Source: a virus | IMG/VR virus record: IMGVR_UViG_3300008453_000579 | Location: 1-44,647 of that record | Length of the DNA stretch: 44,647 nucleotides | Strand: one strand, 5' to 3' | Part shown: positions 6,048 through 30,917 of the stretch, piece by piece | Numbering within the stretch: position 1 is the stretch's first letter | Layout of the letters: each line of letters begins with the position of its first letter | Position numbers and translations under genes: made by a program | Notes under the pieces: model-generated | What the model saw: the letters and a program-made list of their open reading frames with translations, nothing else | Told to the model about the DNA's origin: nothing | Databases searched by the model: none

Positions 6048-6127
6048 TTGTTTTTCTTCGGTTGTGGCGGTGGTGTGCGGGTGTTCTGCTTGGTGCCCGG
6101 TGGCACTGGCGTCGATTTACTTGGCAT
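6044..6127 (-). CDS. 27-residue Pro/Lys-rich reading frame
   Basis: A very short reading frame (27 codons) that begins in the end of the 56-residue membrane protein gene and ends in TGA overlapping the GTG of the 160-residue membrane protein gene. The peptide is P-, T- and K-rich and ends K-K-N-K. It may be expressed, or may only serve to carry ribosomes to the downstream GTG start. Overlap at both ends is the only support. Confidence 0.35.
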   Translation of the reverse strand: MPSKSTPVPPGTKQNTRTPPPQPKKNK

Positions 6128-6287
6128 TGCTGTCTTGCTCCATGTTGATGAACCAGCGGAACCCACGATAGCACACCCAGCACGCAGCGGCCACAATGAC
6201 CGCGCCCAGTTGCTGATCGGGCGTCGTGCGCTGCAGAAACACGCTGGCCGCCACGAATCCGAGGGCGGTGGTGATCACTTGTTGCAT
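6117..6287 (-). CDS. Small two-TM membrane protein, 56 aa
   Basis: A 56-residue protein starting at ATG 6287 inside the end of the upstream 70-codon gene. It has two hydrophobic segments: residues about 4-18 (V-I-T-T-A-L-G-F-V-A-A-S-V-F-L) and about 27-40 (L-G-A-V-I-V-A-A-A-C-W-V-C-Y). They are separated by a polar turn R-T-T-P-D-Q-Q. The C-terminus is charged. Two short helices and a hairpin topology are seen in small holins and pinholins, so a role at the inner membrane is likely. It precedes other membrane proteins in a tightly overlapping cluster. Confidence 0.6.
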   Translation of the reverse strand: MQQVITTALGFVAASVFLQRTTPDQQLGAVIVAAACWVCYRGFRWFINMEQDSNAK

Positions 6288-6487
6288 GGCATCACCTCGA
6301 CGTGGCTAGGAATGCCAGAAATAAAAACCGGTGCCTTGTTATCCCAGGGTCTGCACGCCTGAAACGCTAAATCCGCCAGCCGGCTTGTAGTTTGCAGGCG
6401 CGCGTAGGCGTTGCTTGCTTCGGCTCCGTATATGTTGCTGCCGCCTCCCCCCACGTTCGGGTCGAGTCCCCGGTCTTGTTCGCGCAT
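6275..6487 (-). CDS. Hypothetical 70-aa protein
   Basis: A 70-residue soluble protein of unknown function. It starts at ATG 6487 behind a good Shine-Dalgarno (AAGGAG, six bases upstream). The N-terminus is charged with a G-G-G-G stretch (residues 13-16), followed by a helical A/R/L-rich region and a C-terminal P-V-F-I-S-G-I-P-S-H-V-E-V-M-P-C segment. It is the first gene of the membrane-protein cluster and overlaps the next gene by 13 bases. No signal peptide or membrane helix is evident. Confidence 0.6.
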   Translation of the reverse strand: MREQDRGLDPNVGGGGSNIYGAEASNAYARLQTTSRLADLAFQACRPWDNKAPVFISGIPSHVEVMPCNK

Positions 6488-6562
6488 ATCGTGCTCCTTA
6501 ATTTATCTGAGCTACGCGGGCCATTTTATCCGCGCTTTATCGGGTTCAGCTCATTGGTTAGG

Positions 6563-6635
6563 ACTGCCGCACCTGAATCGAACAGGAAGCTCCGCAAGCG
6601 TCACACTTGCAGCGTGTACCGGACACCCACGGCAG
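6563..6635 (-). tRNA. tRNA-like element (73 nt, non-canonical anticodon loop, no encoded CCA)
   Basis: On the minus strand a 73-base segment folds like a tRNA. It has a 7-bp acceptor stem (CTGCCGT with GCGGCAG, last pair T-G) and a short D arm (GTG/CAC with loop TCCGGTA). The anticodon arm is GCAAG/CTTGC (extendable to 7 bp) with 7-base loop TGTGACG. The T arm (CCTG/CAGG) has the classic loop TTCGATT. A single discriminator T follows, then CC rather than CCA. Oddities: position 33 would be G rather than T, positions 8-9 are GG, and three extra bases lie between D and anticodon arms. A literal reading gives anticodon TGA, which is not trustworthy. It may be a degenerate tRNA or a tRNA mimic. 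Confidence 0.42.
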
Positions 6636-6713
6636 ATATAACCAATAAACTAAAATGGCGCCGCGCACCCGGCTAGGCCTAGGAACTTAATACAGCTGCG
6701 CGGCGTGTCTAAA

Positions 6714-6887
6714 CTAAACGCCCTCAGTATTGACCACAAGGACAATAGTTGTCAAGCGCCGGTGTCGTCTTTGCCGGCAGCGCGCCCTGCAGTACAAGTG
6801 GGCGCGGTTGTGGCGGATGAACCACTCGCCGCACTCAGGGCACTGCGACAACTTCGCGCCTACTGTGTTAGCCGTCAAGTGGATCAA
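6714..6887 (-). CDS. Small zinc-ribbon protein, 57 aa
   Basis: A short minus-strand gene with a clear zinc-binding pattern: Q-C-P-E-C-G-E-W-F, then L-Y-C-R-A-R-C-R-Q-R-R-H-R-R. This is a Cys4 arrangement followed by an Arg-rich tail, as in small nucleic-acid-binding zinc fingers. The most likely start is TTG 6887, five bases after AGGGG; an in-frame stop lies just upstream. It stands alone between the capsid-operon terminator and the tRNA-like element, so it may be read from its own weak promoter or by read-through. Reading frames on the opposite strand here are its antisense shadows. Confidence 0.55.
   Translation of the reverse strand: MIHLTANTVGAKLSQCPECGEWFIRHNRAHLYCRARCRQRRHRRLTTIVLVVNTEGV
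6726..6755 (-). promoter_or_regulatory. Candidate promoter ahead of tRNA-like element and neck/tail operon
   Basis: Minus strand TTGACA (6755-6750), an 18-base spacer, then AATACT (6731-6726). The -35 box is perfect and the -10 box matches four of six positions. It lies downstream of the capsid-operon terminator and upstream of the tRNA-like element and the whole membrane/neck/tail block, where a promoter is needed. It sits inside the end of the zinc-ribbon gene. Confidence 0.4.
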
Positions 6888-6996
6888 CTATACCCCTATT
6901 GGCGCGCATATTCTGTGCGGCGCCTAAAATAGAGGCGTAAAGATATGGCTACATTAAGCGAGGATATTGTCGGCGGTCGCGGTATGGGTGGCGGCA

Positions 6997-7023
6997 ATAA
7001 AAAAGCCCCTTCACGGGGCTTTT
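6997..7023 (-). terminator. Rho-independent terminator after the capsid operon
   Basis: A 9-bp perfect stem AAAAGCCCC/GGGGCTTTT with a five-base loop. Read on the minus strand it is followed by a continuous T run (six Ts), ideal for stopping transcripts coming from the capsid genes. It lies 13 bases beyond the stop of the 78-residue gene. Confidence 0.85.
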
Positions 7024-7036
7024 CGTTGCTCGGTGA

Positions 7037-7273
7037 TCACAGCGCTTCGAGGTGCTGCAATTGTTCCGGCGTTACGCTCTCGAGTGTCACCTCGTCGCCC
7101 GGCTGGAAGCCGTGGAAGCGAGATGATTTTACCCGGTAGCGCGTGCCGGTTGCGGCCACGGGGGCCGCGTCGGCTGTTGGTTCGGCGGTGCCCGCATCGG
7201 CTGCCAGCTGCGCCGCTAACTGCTCGGCTGTTGGCTCGACCGGTGTGGCGGCTGCTTCGTTGTTTCGTCCCAT
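7037..7273 (-). CDS. Hypothetical 78-aa protein after the capsid gene (DUF7210-like)
   Basis: A 78-residue protein, last gene of the head operon before the terminator. The first half is Ala/Glu/Pro-rich and probably disordered. The second half has Y-R-V-K-S-S-R-F-H-G-F-Q-P-G-D-E-V-T-L, a compact beta fold seen in small proteins found next to phage capsid genes. It has a strong Shine-Dalgarno (AAGGAG, six bases before ATG). It may be a minor head-associated protein; function is unknown. Confidence 0.65.
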   Translation of the reverse strand: MGRNNEAAATPVEPTAEQLAAQLAADAGTAEPTADAAPVAATGTRYRVKSSRFHGFQPGDEVTLESVTPEQLQHLEAL

Positions 7274-7283
7274 ATCCAGCTCC

Positions 7284-14072: not shown

Positions 14073-15614
14073 TCATAGCACCCCGGCCCGTGGTTTGGTA
14101 GCGGTGATAAATGCGCGGTCAATGGCGTCGATCAGCGTGTCGGTCTGGTCGTCGTGCTTGTGCGTATCGTCCGCGTTGAAGCTGCACACTTCGGCGATCA
14201 ACTCGGGGTTGCTGGGGTCGCCCGCACGCAGTTTGACCTTGCCGCCACGGTGGTGTGGCTGCGCGTCCAGCGCTCGCGTGAGCTTGTCGCGGCTGCGTTG
14301 CACGGCGGTTATTTTGATGGGCAGTTGCTGGGAGGCCTCTTGTATCAACCCGGTGCCGCTGCTCTTGTCCTCGACGTCCACCGCGCGCAGGTTGCCGTGT
14401 ATTGGTCCGTTGAGGTCATAGCATTCACGGACAAATTGCACAAAGCGGGTGCGCAGCTCGTGCGCTTCCCATTTGCCCCTGATGCCGTTGATGCGGTGCA
14501 GATTGCCCTGATACATGCCCCAATGGTTGATCACGCTAAAGTCGTGGCGCTCGCCGGTTTTCTGCGCGGTGTCCACGGTAATGAACCGGTATTCCCAGTG
14601 TGGCACGTCGTCCGGCTCGTATAGCCCGAAGTCGTCGGGGCGGAATATGCCGCCGCTCAGCAGTTCAGGCTGCTGCATGTATTGGCTGGTGAACGTGTAG
14701 GGGTCTGACTCCCATAGTTGCACCAGGTCCTTGACGTCTTCGTTAGCCGGCCAGAAGCTCCAATACTCTACGCCGCCGACTGTCACGGATTCGCTGCCGA
14801 GGCAATCCGCCAGCGCGTAGGGGCGTATATCCTCGGGTAGCGCCATGAGGTAATCAAGCGTTACCAGCGCCGGTATGCTGACGTGCTCGAATGTGAGGCC
14901 CATACCCCCCGATACCATAAACGCGCTGCTATCGTCGACGTGGAGGCGCTGCTGGATGGCTAAAATTGGCGTGGGGTGCTTGCGGGACTTGTCGCCCCGA
15001 CGCGAGCGCACCGTGTTGACGAGCAGCTGATGCGTTCGCTTTCGGCGCACTTCGCTGAATACGTCGTCTGGTTTGTCCACGTCGTCCAGTAGCACCCAGC
15101 CGGAAAAATTGGGGCCGATATAGCCGCCGCGGCCACCGGTGATCTGTCCGCCCGCCGAGCGGCTGACGACCTCCGCGACCGTCTTGCCTTGGCGTGTAAC
15201 GAGTTGCCACTCGTCGGCCTGGTTGGTGCCGAACGTTCGCGGCCACAGCTCCTGAAATTCTTCCGAGGCGATCAGGTCGCGCGTTCTGCGGCTATTGCGC
15301 TTGGTGAGCGAGTCGCTGAACGATATGTTCAGGTTGCGGAACTTCGGTACCTTAACGACCATCCATGCCGGCGCGTGTATGCTCAGCGTCTCGGTTTTAC
15401 CGGCGCCGGGAGGTACGTTGATCACCACGTTGTGCGGTCGCTCGGTGATAATCTCTTGCGCCTTGCGCGCCAGCAGCCGGTGGTGCCAGTTTACTTGCCA
15501 CTTCTCGCCCTGCGTGATCTGAAACCAGATCCGCAAAAACGTTAGATAATCCGCCTCGCTCAGCAGGCGCAATGCCTGGCGCTTAGCGGGGCTGCAATCT
15601 TCCCACTCGATCAT
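14073..15614 (-). CDS. terL: Terminase large subunit
   Basis: A 513-residue packaging motor. The ATPase domain shows Walker A P-P-G-A-G-K-T (residues 68-74) and Walker B W-V-L-L-D-D-V-D (about 173-180). The nuclease domain shows acidic residues in I-T-V-D-T-A (D348), V-D-V-E-D-K (about 412-417) and the C-terminal H-D-D-Q-T-D-T-L-I-D-A segment. Together these drive ATP-dependent DNA translocation and cut concatemers. It overlaps the small terminase stop by four bases. The gene continuity across the window ends is compatible with headful (pac) packaging or simply with circular assembly. Confidence 0.96.
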   Translation of the reverse strand: MIEWEDCSPAKRQALRLLSEADYLTFLRIWFQITQGEKWQVNWHHRLLARKAQEIITERPHNVVINVPPGAGKTETLSIHAPAWMVVKVPKFRNLNISFSDSLTKRNSRRTRDLIASEEFQELWPRTFGTNQADEWQLVTRQGKTVAEVVSRSAGGQITGGRGGYIGPNFSGWVLLDDVDKPDDVFSEVRRKRTHQLLVNTVRSRRGDKSRKHPTPILAIQQRLHVDDSSAFMVSGGMGLTFEHVSIPALVTLDYLMALPEDIRPYALADCLGSESVTVGGVEYWSFWPANEDVKDLVQLWESDPYTFTSQYMQQPELLSGGIFRPDDFGLYEPDDVPHWEYRFITVDTAQKTGERHDFSVINHWGMYQGNLHRINGIRGKWEAHELRTRFVQFVRECYDLNGPIHGNLRAVDVEDKSSGTGLIQEASQQLPIKITAVQRSRDKLTRALDAQPHHRGGKVKLRAGDPSNPELIAEVCSFNADDTHKHDDQTDTLIDAIDRAFITATKPRAGVL

Positions 15615-16018
15615 AACTCAGCCAGCACGCTGCGAAGCGCATCGGCCACGTCTGCGGCGGATATGGGCGCAATGGGCGACATGCTGCCGTCGCTGCTCAG
15701 GTTGTCCACTTCGCGCCGCTCGATGTCCCCGTGCTTGGATAACATGATGCGCGTCACGACCGGGTGAAACCGTCCGCCCAGCCCGCCAGACGTGAGCAGC
15801 TTGTGCTGCTTGGTCATCAGCGCGTCCATAACGGGAATCAATTCTGCGTAATCTGGGTGCTGCTGGTAGTTGTAGAGAATCTTCTTGCTGCAGTCCATAT
15901 AGACCGCTAAGCCCGCCACAGTAGGCACAAGGTCGCCTTCCTGCTCATAGTTCGCTAAGTACCAGCGCGCCCGCTCGAGCGCTTCTTCTGGGGTGAATTT
16001 AAATGGTCTACCTGCCAC
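15611..16018 (-). CDS. terS: Terminase small subunit
   Basis: A 135-residue protein directly upstream of the large terminase and overlapping it. It starts at GTG 16018, ten bases after an AGAGGG site. An N-terminal G-R-P-F-K-F-T-P-E-E segment and a helix-turn-helix-like stretch (V-P-T-V-A-G-L-A-V-Y-M-D-C-S-K-K-I-L-Y-N-Y) fit DNA-packaging small subunits. The middle has T-R-I-M-L-S-K-H-G-D, also typical. It would recognise phage DNA, possibly near the iteron region that lies immediately upstream of its own promoter. Confidence 0.88.
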   Translation of the reverse strand: MAGRPFKFTPEEALERARWYLANYEQEGDLVPTVAGLAVYMDCSKKILYNYQQHPDYAELIPVMDALMTKQHKLLTSGGLGGRFHPVVTRIMLSKHGDIERREVDNLSSDGSMSPIAPISAADVADALRSVLAEL

Positions 16019-16048
16019 AGTTGGCGCCCTCTTATTGACCGTGTAGGC

Positions 16049-16079
16049 AGTATAGCACTAGCCGCCACACATTGCGCAA
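16049..16079 (-). promoter_or_regulatory. Candidate promoter of the packaging operon
   Basis: Minus strand TTGCGC (16079-16074), 19-base spacer, TATACT (16054-16049) with an extended -10 TG. It lies about 30 bases ahead of the small terminase GTG start. It matches the -35/-10 pair before the protease gene and borders the proposed origin. Confidence 0.5.
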
Positions 16080-16096: not shown

Positions 16097-16388
16097 CCAA
16101 TGACCGAATGACCGAACTATGACCTATATTGGGTCATGCGTAAGTTATTGATCTATATCTCTATTTACTACTTATGACCCAATGACCTAAGAATTATATT
16201 GTAAACATACAGACGGATCATAAATATATAGGTATATCGCACACACATAATAATATATAAGAGGGTCTGGTCGGTTTGGGTCTTTTTCGTGATAGGGTTC
16301 GGTCATTCGGTCATAACCCGAAAAAGTGCAATAGAATCAAGCGGTTACGTATGACCCAATATGGGTCATGGTTCGGTCATTCGGTCAT
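16097..16388. repeat. Iteron-rich, AT-rich intergenic region: putative replication origin
   Basis: About 290 non-coding bases contain twelve copies of TGACC/GGTCA. Direct pairs at 8-base spacing occur at 16100-16115 (ATGACCGA twice), 16174-16189, 16301-16314 and 16375-16388. The last two lie in identical copies of GGTTCGGTCATTCGGTCAT (16297 and 16370). Two 19-base dyads of the form ATGACC-n-GGGTCAT occur at 16119-16137 and 16351-16369. Between the clusters (about 16141-16260) the DNA is very AT-rich. Iterons flanking an AT-rich stretch are the classic layout of initiator-dependent origins. No gene is present here. Confidence 0.65.
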
Positions 16389-16445
16389 GGGGTAACGTGG
16401 CAGCAACGACGGGTAACAATTAGATAACAAGCGAACCAAGCGGAG

Positions 16446-16501
16446 AACATATCAGCAACGCGCAGTAACAAAGGCCGGTTGTTGCTGATATGTTACTGCG
16501 C
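16446..16501. repeat. Shuffled inverted repeat next to the putative origin
   Basis: AACATATCAGCAAC (16446-16459) is followed by GCGCAGTAAC (16460-16469). Both modules recur in inverted form as GTTGCTGATATGTT (16481-16494) and GTTACTGCGC (16492-16501), but in swapped arrangement. Further GTAAC copies lie at 16392 and 16412. It could be a strong hairpin, a protein-binding array or part of the origin. The region 16389-16502 holds no gene. Confidence 0.55.
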
Positions 16502-16502
16502 G

Positions 16503-16700
16503 TTACACGATGTTACTGGCCACATAACACTGCGGAACGCCCTGCCCTGGCTTGCGCTGCATGGACTTGTCGATCGCCTCGAGCGTGGTGCATTCGTGTT
16601 GGTTGCGTACTGCTAAGCCGCGCTTATACCCGACAAAAACGCGGCGACCCTGTGCGAGCAGTCGCTCGGCTTGATGGCGTGGGAGTGGTATTAATTGCAT
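16503..16700 (-). CDS. Hypothetical 65-aa protein bordering the origin
   Basis: A 65-residue basic protein, last gene of the second minus-strand early operon. Its ATG 16700 overlaps the upstream TGA (TGATG), with AAAGGA upstream. It begins M-Q-L-I-P-L-P-R-H-Q-A and contains R-R-V-F-V-G-Y-K-R-G and a C-terminal region with two Cys. Its 3' end lies at the edge of the inverted-repeat block. A role in DNA binding is conceivable from its charge, but no motif is recognised. Confidence 0.55.
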   Translation of the reverse strand: MQLIPLPRHQAERLLAQGRRVFVGYKRGLAVRNQHECTTLEAIDKSMQRKPGQGVPQCYVASNIV

Positions 16701-17395
16701 CACAGTGATCCTTTTATTTTGCTGATTGTTGTGGGCGACACGCCGGTGCGCCGGCTGACCTCGGTGCCCATGACGCCCTCACGTAGCCACTGCACGATCT
16801 GCTGGCGGACGGTGGGGTCAATGCGGGTATAAGTACCACGTGGCGGCCGGTTCGACGGCGTGGCGGATGCTTTGGCCACTTTGAACGCCTCGCGCCGGCT
16901 GACCTTGCTGCACGTCGTGCATCGCGTAACCTTGCCGCTGCGTAATTTGTCGATCCGAACTGTGCGGATACCACCGCACGAGCAGCTGCAATAGACTGCG
17001 CGCCCTTCTCGCCCCGTGACGGTCAGCCCGCCATATCGCTGACCGGGTACCGCTAAGAGACGGCGGCCACGCTTGCCGGGTTCACGCGGTACCCTGCGCG
17101 GCTCGGGTGGCGATGTGAGGCCGTGCGCTTGCGCGATGTTATAGACCGTTGCGCGACTGCAGCCACAATGCTCGGCGATGGCGTCTCTGGTCATATTGCG
17201 CGCCATGAGCAGGCGCAGCACAGTGGCGGTCTCGGGGTGTCGCTTTGCACCGCGTCGACCTCCACGCCCCCTCTCGCGCCGGACGCGATACACGGTATCT
17301 ACTGAGCAGAAGCACTGCGCGGCGACCTCTGCGGGCGATAGTCCACGCGCGTCAGCTGCCGCTATGCGGTCGCGTTGTTCGCGTGAGTAGGTCAT
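16700..17395 (-). CDS. Multi-HTH, zinc-binding DNA-binding protein, 231 aa
   Basis: Three helix-turn-helix-like segments are visible: residues about 18-40 (G-L-S-P-A-E-V-A-A-Q-C-F-C-S-V), 68-90 (M-T-R-D-A-I-A-E-H-C-G-C-S-R-A-T-V) and 205-228 (G-V-M-G-T-E-V-S-R-R-T-G-V-S-P). Between the second and third lies a Cys cluster (C136, C138, C140, C159, C162), a zinc-ribbon-like pattern common in phage DNA-binding and HNH-associated proteins. Linkers are Arg-rich. Two or more DNA-reading modules in one chain suit binding to repeated sites, and the iteron region lies just downstream. I propose an origin-binding initiator or regulator, unproven. Confidence 0.75.
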   Translation of the reverse strand: MTYSREQRDRIAAADARGLSPAEVAAQCFCSVDTVYRVRRERGRGGRRGAKRHPETATVLRLLMARNMTRDAIAEHCGCSRATVYNIAQAHGLTSPPEPRRVPREPGKRGRRLLAVPGQRYGGLTVTGREGRAVYCSCSCGGIRTVRIDKLRSGKVTRCTTCSKVSRREAFKVAKASATPSNRPPRGTYTRIDPTVRQQIVQWLREGVMGTEVSRRTGVSPTTISKIKGSL

Positions 17396-20423: not shown

Positions 20424-20447
20424 AAAAAAAAAGCCCCCGAAGGGGCT
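20424..20447 (-). terminator. Rho-independent terminator of the primase operon
   Basis: A 6-bp stem AGCCCC/GGGGCT with tetraloop TTCG (minus-strand reading), followed by a run of nine Ts. It overlaps the stop codon of the primase-helicase gene and separates the two early minus-strand operons. Confidence 0.88.
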
Positions 20448-22692
20448 AGGCGCTGGCGGCGTTGAGCTGGGGGGCTATTTGCTGGGCGTTGATATACTGT
20501 TGGCACACGGCGCGCGGGTCGGTGAGCTGTGCGGCGAGGTGGTCTTTTTTCACGTAGAGGCGCGGGCGCGCTCCGTCGATCTCGATAGTGGCGCGACCCT
20601 GTGGCAGCGCCGGGTGCAGAATGTAGCCGTTTTGTTCCATCAGCTCGCGGCGTCTGCTTTGTGGGATATGCTTGCGCATATGGTCGAGCAGCTGACTGAG
20701 CGCCTGGCTCGATACGAACCCGCCCCGGAACCCGTGCCGCCCTTCCTCGACGGCCTCCACGATCTCTTGTTCCACGCTGCCACGGCTGGCGCTGACCGCC
20801 TCTGCGTGGCTGCTAGTCTGCGGCGCGCGTGGAGCACCGGTGGCCGGGTTGAGTTCGTAGGGGATCGGGTAGGTCTCCAGGTAATCCGTGACGATCGCAT
20901 AGCCGCCAGACTTCGCCCAGTCATAGAGCGCCTTCATATACTCAGTGTCCATGCCGTCACGCTGTAGGTCGCTCGCTTGCTGCTGCGCCGTATAGAACAC
21001 GGCCAAACGGCGGTCGTTCTCGGTCTTGCGCAGCGCGTCCTTATGGTTGCTGTTAAGCATAAAGTTCGCGCAGATATCGCGGGTGACTTGCTTGGTGCCT
21101 TTGCCCTGAATGCCGAGACCGTCGCCGCCGGTGATCATCGGCTTTAATATCTCGAGCACTTCCATTTTCTCTGCTGGGACATATATATCCTCCACGCCGA
21201 CGAATATAACGCCTTCCAGCCAGTCGTTGAACTTGTTCGCGATGTCCTGGGCTTGCGGCATCATCGTATAGCGCCGGCCGATGGCCATACGCACGCAGCG
21301 GGTAAAGAAAGTCTTGCCGTTACCCTCCACGCCTTGGATCAGCGGGCACCACTGAAACTTAACGCCCTTGTGTTGCACGACGGCGGCCATGTAGGCCAGC
21401 AGTATATCGCGGTCGCGTTGATTGGGTAGCAGCAGCGACAAGTGGCGCAGGAATGGCGCGGCGTCGCCTTTGGCGCGCGGAACGTCGATCGGCTTGTACG
21501 TGTTGACCAGGCGCAGCCCGTCCTCCTGCACGATCTGCTGGAATGCAAGGTCGGGCCGGAATACGTCGCGGTCTGCCATTGGGTAGCGCACGACCTGCGA
21601 CTCGGTGAACGCCTGCCACGCATTGGTCGCCATTGTGCGGTTCGCTGCGTCCATGACGAACTGATAGCCGCCGTAACGCACGCGGAACTGCTCGGGCTTC
21701 TCCAGCTCCCCGTTCGGCGTCAGCACAGCGTGGCGGCTGGCGATATAGACACACCCGGCGAAATAGTTAACTTGCTGGCTCGGCACCATCATCTGCAGCC
21801 CTTCGCGGATCTCCGGTGCTGCCGCTGGCGGCGGTGGCTGTTCGATCGTAACGCCGGCACCCAGCACGCGCTGGCAACGCGCCACTGCGCCTAAAATGGT
21901 GCGCTCGCGGTAGTCGTCGCGCTCCCATTTGTCACGCATCAGGCCAGACTGGCGGAATAGCCTATCCATGCGCTCGCAATCTTTGCCGGTCCAAAATGCT
22001 AAATGTTGGCATAGCTTGGCGTCGTCCCGCGAGGCGTCGCCGGTACCTTGGCCAGCCCATAGCGCGTGCAGTGACGCGTCGCCCCCGAACGCATTGGCTG
22101 CGCTGTTGCTGCCGAGCATCCGGTCGATCAGCTCTTGGTCGTCGGTCGGGCCGCTCCACTCTGCCACTGGTTCGTTAGTCCACTCGGCTGCATCTGCTGC
22201 AGCGTCTGGCGTAAAGTGCTGGGCGATCAGGCCAAGCAGCGCCGCGCTGTGGTCGGTGTCCGGGTTGCCGGTGCTGTCTTGCCACGTGAGCGCGACAAAG
22301 CGGCGCGCGCTGTATAACTCCAGCACCACAGAGGCCGAGACGGGGCGAGTACGGTGTGGCGGCAGTGGGCAGCTATAGCGGCCAATGATATGCCAGCCGG
22401 TGCCGCTTGTGCTGCGCTCGACGAATGCACCCGGGAACCGTGCGAGCAGATCGGCCAGCAAGTCCTCGTTATCCAAGTCGATAAAAAAGTACGGATCTTG
22501 TTCAGTGAACACGAAGCCGATGCCGAAGCCCAGCGCGCCGGCCAGCGAGTGCGCGGTGGCGTAGTCCAGCCAGTTTGCCGGGTCTTGCCCGTCGACTGGC
22601 TCGCCCAGCGCATTACACGTGATCTTCTTGAGCTTGCCGGGCTTGGTGTCCGGCGTGGTGAAATATAGGACAAATTGCTTGTTATTATACAT
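20446..22692 (-). CDS. Primase-polymerase/helicase (NrS-1-like, SF3-type helicase)
   Basis: A 748-residue replication enzyme. The N-terminal archaeo-eukaryotic-type primase/polymerase domain has the metal-binding F-F-I-D-L-D-N (D72, D74) and S-T-S-G-T-G-W-H (94-101), as in NrS-1-like prim-pols. A helical segment R-L-F-R-Q-S-G-L-M-R-D-K-W (near residues 240-260) is a hallmark of that group. The C-terminal half has a P-loop G-V-E-G-N-G-K-T (about 454) and downstream V-F-V-G-V-E-D-I-Y and N-F-M-L-N-S-N-H, typical of SF3/DUF5906 helicases. It probably primes and unwinds DNA. The phage also carries a family A polymerase, so this enzyme is likely the primase. Confidence 0.9.
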   Translation of the reverse strand: MYNNKQFVLYFTTPDTKPGKLKKITCNALGEPVDGQDPANWLDYATAHSLAGALGFGIGFVFTEQDPYFFIDLDNEDLLADLLARFPGAFVERSTSGTGWHIIGRYSCPLPPHRTRPVSASVVLELYSARRFVALTWQDSTGNPDTDHSAALLGLIAQHFTPDAAADAAEWTNEPVAEWSGPTDDQELIDRMLGSNSAANAFGGDASLHALWAGQGTGDASRDDAKLCQHLAFWTGKDCERMDRLFRQSGLMRDKWERDDYRERTILGAVARCQRVLGAGVTIEQPPPPAAAPEIREGLQMMVPSQQVNYFAGCVYIASRHAVLTPNGELEKPEQFRVRYGGYQFVMDAANRTMATNAWQAFTESQVVRYPMADRDVFRPDLAFQQIVQEDGLRLVNTYKPIDVPRAKGDAAPFLRHLSLLLPNQRDRDILLAYMAAVVQHKGVKFQWCPLIQGVEGNGKTFFTRCVRMAIGRRYTMMPQAQDIANKFNDWLEGVIFVGVEDIYVPAEKMEVLEILKPMITGGDGLGIQGKGTKQVTRDICANFMLNSNHKDALRKTENDRRLAVFYTAQQQASDLQRDGMDTEYMKALYDWAKSGGYAIVTDYLETYPIPYELNPATGAPRAPQTSSHAEAVSASRGSVEQEIVEAVEEGRHGFRGGFVSSQALSQLLDHMRKHIPQSRRRELMEQNGYILHPALPQGRATIEIDGARPRLYVKKDHLAAQLTDPRAVCQQYINAQQIAPQLNAASA

Positions 22693-22987
22693 TTTGCTGC
22701 GCCATCCATTCAGTTGCGCGGGCTGCCACGTGTGGCGGCACCTCGGCGCGCATTGTTAGCCCCTGAGCGACCACGGGCAGCACGCCCCGCTTGATCGCCT
22801 CGGCCAAAATAGTGCGCCGCATCTCATTGACCGATCCGAAGTAGTGGGACACGAGCGCCACTGAGCAGGGCACCAGCGCTGCAATATCGCGCCGGCGCAC
22901 TGTCTGATAGCCCTTATCGGTCGCCGCGACGAGCGCGGCGGCGATTAGCTGGTCCTGTCGGTCGGCTGGGATTAGCCTTTTTCTCAT
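22685..22987 (-). CDS. TetR-type mini-regulator (HTH domain only), 100 aa
   Basis: A 100-residue protein that matches only the N-terminal DNA-binding part of TetR regulators: Q-L-I-A-A-A-L-V-A-A-T-D-K-G-Y, then V-R-R-R-D-I-A-A-L-V-P-C-S-V-A-L-V-S-H-Y-F-G-S. The usual ligand-binding domain (about 120 residues more) is missing. A basic/helical tail follows. It overlaps the methyltransferase gene and the primase gene by a few bases. It may regulate phage promoters, for example the palindromic operators at 20.4 kb. Confidence 0.82.
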   Translation of the reverse strand: MRKRLIPADRQDQLIAAALVAATDKGYQTVRRRDIAALVPCSVALVSHYFGSVNEMRRTILAEAIKRGVLPVVAQGLTMRAEVPPHVAARATEWMAQQNV

Positions 22988-30305: not shown

Positions 30306-30917
30306 ATGAACCCGCAAATTGCTAAAGATCTGGCCGTAAAAGTATTAAAGCATCTCGAGGCGCACAGAGTGCCAGCGCTCTGCGTGGGCGGTTGCGCCCG
30401 CGACGTATTTAATAATCAAGACGTCCGCGACATTGATATTGTTATAAATCACCCAGACCCCGACAAGTTTAATTTTATACAAGATATGTCGATTATATTC
30501 GGTGGTCCTTGTGATGTCCGAATTTTTGAGGAATACGGCGACGAACTAATTGACCGCGATAGCGGAACGCACCGCCCTGAAAGTTCAGATTTCCGCGACC
30601 GCATTTGCTGCGTGACGCAGATCCGTGGCTACTGGCACGGTGAGATTGCAAGCGTTGACATTTTGCACGCGCAAGCGCCGCTGGCTGACCTGCGGGAATT
30701 CGTTGGCACTTTCGACTTGACTATAAACCAATGCTATTTTGGCAGCGACGGGGCGCTCGGTGTTCCGCCCGACCACTACAAAGTGCGCTTGGTTGACGGG
30801 GTCAAGTTAAACAGCCGGATATTAAGACGCATAGAGCGGCTGCGTGCCAAGTACCCGCAGCATGATTGGTCCGAAGTAATGACCGAAATCGCCCCGCTGG
30901 CGGGGTTGCTCAAATGA
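30306..30917 (+). CDS. Nucleotidyltransferase (CCA-adding/poly(A)-polymerase head type)
   Basis: A 203-residue protein with the G-G-x-x-R-D/D-x-D motif: C-V-G-G-C-A-R-D (G28-D33) and D-I-D-I-V (D42, D44). This is the head-domain signature of CCA-adding enzymes and poly(A) polymerases (class II), and a third acidic residue is likely in V-D-I-L near residue 118. Only the head and part of the neck are present; full CCA enzymes are about 400 residues. It may add nucleotides to RNA 3' ends or act on other acceptors. Start ATG 30306 has AAGGAG upstream. Its stop overlaps the polymerase start. Confidence 0.82.
   Translation: MNPQIAKDLAVKVLKHLEAHRVPALCVGGCARDVFNNQDVRDIDIVINHPDPDKFNFIQDMSIIFGGPCDVRIFEEYGDELIDRDSGTHRPESSDFRDRICCVTQIRGYWHGEIASVDILHAQAPLADLREFVGTFDLTINQCYFGSDGALGVPPDHYKVRLVDGVKLNSRILRRIERLRAKYPQHDWSEVMTEIAPLAGLLK

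Follow-up and report, generated by a model that had tools for sequence, protein, structure and literature searches.

The question raised by this locus is what a dense, non-coding cluster of short repeats does at the head of the late operon of a tailed phage. The window analysed here is a 44,647-bp IMG/VR virus record, transcribed mostly leftwards; among its genes are those for the terminase, the portal, the tape measure and the tail tip. A preliminary description had proposed an initiator-dependent iteron origin, and this is the reading best supported by our comparisons, in which the same geometry was found with other box words in distant helicase-primase relatives, in satellites and in bacterial genomes. 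Because the geometry is kept while the box word changes, which we regard as the decisive evidence, the array is probably a phage replication origin, a displaced variant of the PICI type used by the SF3/DUF5906 helicase-primase of the phage.

Layout of the array and its surroundings

The array (16097-16391) has early and replication genes upstream and terS downstream when it is read on the minus strand. The first downstream gene, on the minus strand at 15611-16018, encodes the terminase small subunit, identified by a profile match to PF16677 (GP3_package). All twelve GGTCA/TGACC boxes are exact and together span 16101-16387 (starts at 16101, 16109, 16120, 16132, 16175, 16183, 16301, 16309, 16352, 16364, 16375 and 16383), and no ORF of at least 70 aa lies over them, so the array is non-coding; twelve boxes in fewer than 300 non-coding bases were indeed what had been described. 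On the minus strand their layout is >0 >8 >19 <31 >74 >82 on one side of the core and <200 <208 >251 <263 <274 <282 on the other, with a mirror axis near 16244 and a symmetry exact to within 1 bp. The outer arms form an inverted repeat of 56 nt (16097-16152 and 16336-16391) with 86% complementarity, and in a self-comparison the array matches its own reverse complement with E=1.2e-18.

Going inwards from the left, an outer pair of TGACC boxes 8 bp apart (16101-16113, minus strand, from the box positions 16101 and 16109 on the plus strand) is followed by a 19-bp dyad, ATGACCTATATTGGGTCAT (16119-16137, boxes at 16120 and 16132), by a spacer carrying TAGTAAATAGAGATATAGATCAATAACT on the minus strand (16138-16174) and by an inner pair of TGACC boxes, also 8 bp apart (16175-16187, minus strand). 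Read by eye, the spacer resembles a TAGAG..ATAGAATCAANGGGTTA element that several divergent relatives have in this position. Beyond the core the order is reversed: an inner pair of GGTCA boxes 8 bp apart on the plus strand (16301-16313) mirrors that at 16175-16187, a second 19-bp dyad, ATGACCCAATATGGGTCAT, occupies 16351-16369 (boxes at 16352 and 16364), and an outer GGTCA pair with the same 8-bp spacing closes the array on the plus strand (16375-16387). Identical GGTTCGGTCATTCGGTCAT units lie at 16296-16314 and 16370-16388, and 18 bases of this unit are present again, inverted, at 16100-16117. The direct pairs, the two identical units and both dyads were therefore correctly reported in the preliminary description, which understated the organisation slightly in that the whole array is one large mirror.

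The AT-rich segment between the boxes also proved real. The core (16188-16300), a putative unwinding element, has a GC content of 34% over 113 bp and overlaps the record's GC minimum, the lowest-GC 100-bp stretch starting at 16161 with 27% GC as against about 59% genome-wide. Chance is excluded as the source of the array: ATGACC occurs 12 times with six direct pairs, giving a score of 24, whereas the maximum in dinucleotide shuffles was 8 (0/200 reached the observed score).

Immediately adjacent is a separate second array (16392-16520; like the first, its dyads and its core, assigned to neither strand) of nine boxes (GTAAC/GCAAC or, on the other strand, GTTAC/GTTGC), most of them 10-11 bp from the next, inverted about the middle and forming overlapping dyads. 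It is by a wide margin the densest cluster of its kind in the record (9 boxes versus 5 for the next), is found at such density only in three close relatives, and the corresponding minus-strand RNA folds unusually well (z=-3.8). A 66-aa ORF at 16503-16703 is 94-97% identical in the three relatives despite swapped neighbours, and differing methyltransferase genes are inserted beside it in L003 and L005.

Close and distant relatives

Three contigs (L015, L016 and L017) have the core genome in common with the window, the nucleotide identity being about 93%, and the twelve boxes are kept at unchanged spacing in all three. The preliminary description had named absence of the repeats from close relatives with the same genes as evidence against an origin, and the search found them retained. 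The array region is 94% identical among these genomes, as compared with about 83% at the fourfold-degenerate sites of the primase gene, and the array is therefore constrained. We dropped the idea of a hyperconserved element, since the relatives are about 93% identical overall, although the array exceeds the fourfold sites.

When the array itself was used as a nucleotide query against phage and plasmid collections, nothing credible was found. The helicase-primase matched 76 loci in viral contigs and 611 phage records, and about 20 primase loci, found partly by eye, carry an intergenic array of the same design built from another box word, with the helicase-primase shared at 36-50% identity. The word is TACCCCG in L030, L038, L044, L064 and L073, AGGTAA in L043 and L060, GGTAACA in L088, TACCACTA in L018 and TACTCCCG in L068, and TTTACC is a further example among the distant relatives. 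In these arrays the inner direct pairs are 8-9 bp apart, the cores usually measure 75-135 bp, and the next inverted box lies about 44 bp outside the right-hand pair. In the window, SppYZU01, FZ14, PEAT2, LAPP1 and KpV52 no stretch of the genome is lower in GC than the core, which in Scuro ranks second lowest; the cores of L068 and L052 are GC-rich (68% and 57% GC), which counts against the origin reading.

Because the regions were chosen by eye, the shuffle statistics obtained locus by locus for the distant relatives are optimistic. An unbiased search looked for quads made of two direct pairs of the same exact 6-mer in mirrored orientation, 75-150 bp from each other. Among 84 primase loci 10 had such a quad, as opposed to 0 of 252 shuffled loci; nine of these arrays had been noted before, and the tenth belongs to the satellite-like L086. 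The exact quad is absent from most of the 84 loci, where degenerate boxes, short contigs or true absence could be responsible. A k-mer scan of the whole window also caught coding repeats in several relatives, and these were discarded.

The gene downstream of the distant arrays varies (terminase small subunits of several families, a ParB-like protein, neck or tail-completion proteins), and the helicase-primase is common to all array carriers despite this variation. DIBBI has a TerL gene that is related in its DNA sequence, but replication genes of another kind, and no mirrored array. Since the downstream genes vary, the primase is constant and DIBBI is without the array, the element travels with the replication module.

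The Jedunavirus and Peatvirus genomes and LAPP1 have two array copies, one ahead of terS and the other ahead of the neck/tail operon (30500-30800 and 43607-43879 in L093; likewise two in L095, L096 and L097), and Jedunavirus records usually contain two or three places that match the array. As represented by FZ14, KpV52, PEAT2 and LAPP1, these arrays have a layout homologous to that of the window and accompany the same primase and TetR-like genes; they differ in their GGGTA/ACCCCG boxes and in being present twice per genome. The sequence records of these four phages carry no origin annotation at the arrays. Within each of FZ14 and KpV52 the two copies resemble each other more closely than copies from different genomes do, and look homogenised, whereas the copies of PEAT2 and LAPP1 differ.

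Known origins and candidate initiators

PICI origins consist of two iteron sets around an AT-rich region, an organisation also described for Gram-positive PICIs, and the pri-ori (rep/ori) segment of EcCICFT073 maintains a plasmid (PMC6092414). The EcCICFT073 element is located in E. coli CFT073 and its replication protein contains D5_N and DUF5906. The boxes of its origin (>0 >9 <55 >77 >88 >97 <128 <139 >161 <207 <216) are mirror-symmetric, >97 being the sole box without a mirror partner. Thus both the PICI origin and the window array have two iteron sets flanking an AT-rich region, with direct pairs that are mirrored and spaced by about 9 bp, and both go with a helicase-primase of the DUF5906/D5 type, the primase of the window aligning weakly with the EcCICFT073 protein (E=0.015). 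They differ in the box word (GGTCA in the window, GGTAGA in EcCICFT073), in the inner gap (113 bp versus 25 bp), in the carrier (a phage of 44.6 kb with a complete set of virion genes as opposed to a satellite) and in position: PICI origins lie directly 3' of the rep/pri gene, whereas the window array is about 4 kb and several genes away from the primase stop at 20446. As the array is not immediately 3' of the primase, we class it as a displaced variant and not as a PICI origin; in the window phage it has been relocated to the start of the late operon, about 4 kb from the primase gene. Nor is the window itself a PICI element, that is, a small satellite with an integrase, AlpA and few virion genes, given its 44.6 kb, its virion genes and the lack of an integrase among the window proteins scanned.

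The typical position is seen in the satellite-like L086, which encodes an integrase, an AlpA-like HTH protein, a capsid, a portal, TerL and a primase with HBD, D5_N and DUF5906. Its mirrored array begins 53 bp after the primase gene, and the N-terminus of this primase is 42% identical to that of the window over residues 5-277. Related primases encoded in bacterial genomes are in many loci followed by mirrored pairs 7-116 bp past the stop, some of these pairs coming from a looser 5-mer search that, under a narrower setting, also scored in 9 of 252 shuffles.

Other phage origins share part of this design. For P4 alpha, a fused primase-helicase initiator recognises short repeats in two separate regions, ori and crr; compared by general description, P4 thus has two regions where the window has one of 290 bp. 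In lambda-type origins, iterons for the O protein and an AT-rich tract lie next to the initiator system (PMC7466680). Iterons plus an AT-rich tract are also what the window has; the lambda iterons, however, are four in number, 19 bp long, on one side of the AT tract and inside the initiator gene, whereas the boxes of the window are 5-6 bp long, lie on both sides and are outside any gene. We therefore rejected the lambda-type class for this intergenic, two-sided array.

In the window, the proposed initiator is an SF3-type helicase-primase of 748 aa (20446-22692, minus strand), identified by profile matches to DUF5906 (PF19263, E=2.9e-15) and NrS1-1_pol-like_HBD (PF22763, E=3.3e-22), the same families as in L086. 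Its C-terminus has a winged-helix-like secondary structure in the predicted model, with no significant match to PDB structures (best E=0.15). Beside it (22685-22987, minus strand) is a gene for a 100-aa mini-TetR protein, an alternative or auxiliary candidate for iteron binding, which neighbours the primase in 68 loci counting the window, that is, in nearly all relatives. Its predicted structure (pLDDT 94) is a TetR-family DNA-binding domain with no ligand domain, and on this model it is a strong DNA-binding candidate. We saw no simple code by which the TetR recognition helix could read the boxes, as the helices differ among relatives that share the word TACCCCG. No TetR-type protein was seen next to the EcCICFT073 primase, an argument for the primase being the basic box reader.

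The preliminary description had instead proposed a 231-aa HTH protein (16700-17395, minus strand) as binder. This protein is confined to the three close relatives, and in two of them it is just 52% identical, despite the invariant boxes and a helicase-primase that is 98-99% identical, so that we do not retain it as a general binder. The predicted primase C-terminus or the neighbouring mini-TetR is likelier to bind the boxes; the 231-aa protein, whose C-terminal HTH is conserved, may have an accessory role.

By filling both mirrored box sets, the initiator, which would be the 748-aa helicase-primase alone or together with the mini-TetR, could form two nucleoprotein halves that would strain and melt the AT core. 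The helicase-primase would then load on the opened strands, prime them and start replication.

The PICI layout was stated in 2018 to be shared by 'no other known bacterial replicon' (PMC6092414). Our comparisons support its extension, as a predicted origin type, to phages with full virion gene sets, including cultured members of Jedunavirus and Peatvirus. The layout goes with a single helicase-primase family in phages, satellites and bacterial genomes alike, and would provide predicted origins for a large phage group whose examined sequence records carry no annotation of a replication start. The co-diverging iteron words would be a natural set for working out how an initiator reads DNA.

Possible roles in late control, packaging and partition

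Several observations count against an origin: the distance from the primase gene, the lack of an exact quad in most primase loci, the GC-rich cores of L068 and L052, the weak alignment with the EcCICFT073 protein, and the putative late promoter and double copies discussed below. GC skew, one of the checks proposed in the preliminary description, shows no replication-like switch at the array, either cumulatively or at third positions.

The position of the array raises the question of late transcription. A putative extended -10 element of the terminase operon, TGCTATACT (16049-16057, minus strand), adjoins the array just outside it, and a thirteenth GGTCA box (16036-16040, minus strand) lies just beyond; both are invariant in the alignment of the three close relatives, and a consensus scan at this putative late promoter found no sigma-70 promoter. 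It is conceivable, although we think it rather unlikely, that the array is both origin and late-gene switch, with initiator binding coupling replication to the firing of the late promoter. We keep this dual function under consideration because the presence of a copy ahead of each of two late operons would fit a role in late control; if true, it would explain the usual place of the array before a late operon in these phages, the thirteenth box at the late start and the fact that Jedunavirus has one copy for each late operon.

The main rival to the origin is a region devoted to late control, in which the mini-TetR or an HTH regulator would bind the boxes and switch the terminase promoter on or off. 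The -10-like element and the thirteenth box, the paired copies of Jedunavirus, Peatvirus and LAPP1 and the conservation of a TetR-fold protein beside the primase would all be in keeping with it. However, a one-sided promoter needs no mirror-symmetric array around the GC minimum of the genome, satellites and bacterial loci place such arrays right after the primase stop, the array persists when the family of the downstream gene changes, and the EcCICFT073 counterpart functions as an origin (PMC6092414). Taken as the sole function, late control seems to us improbable.

A packaging (pac/cos) site recognised by the terminase small subunit is more doubtful still. Packaging sites are commonly found directly upstream of terS, as the array is, and the TerS of the window is of the P22 gp3 type. 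Such a site should be inherited with its cognate terminase, yet L015 has the same array with a TerS of the Terminase_2 family instead of GP3_package, the distant arrays precede unrelated genes, and DIBBI combines a related TerL gene and another replication module with the lack of a mirrored array. Least plausible of all is a partition (parS/parC-like) or other segregation site, suggested by the helically phased GTAAC boxes that adjoin the array and by the ParB-like gene after the array of L033, given that the window proteins scanned include no ParA/ParB or ParM/ParR and that the geometry tracks the primase family and not partition genes.

Elsewhere in the late region, a tRNA-Ser gene with a TGA anticodon (6561-6635) is surrounded by about 1.2 kb (6048-7283) without ORFs of at least 120 aa. 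The two ends of the record (1 and 44647) both lie in tail genes that share a strand, and this points to a near-complete genome, circular or permuted, that was opened in the tail region.
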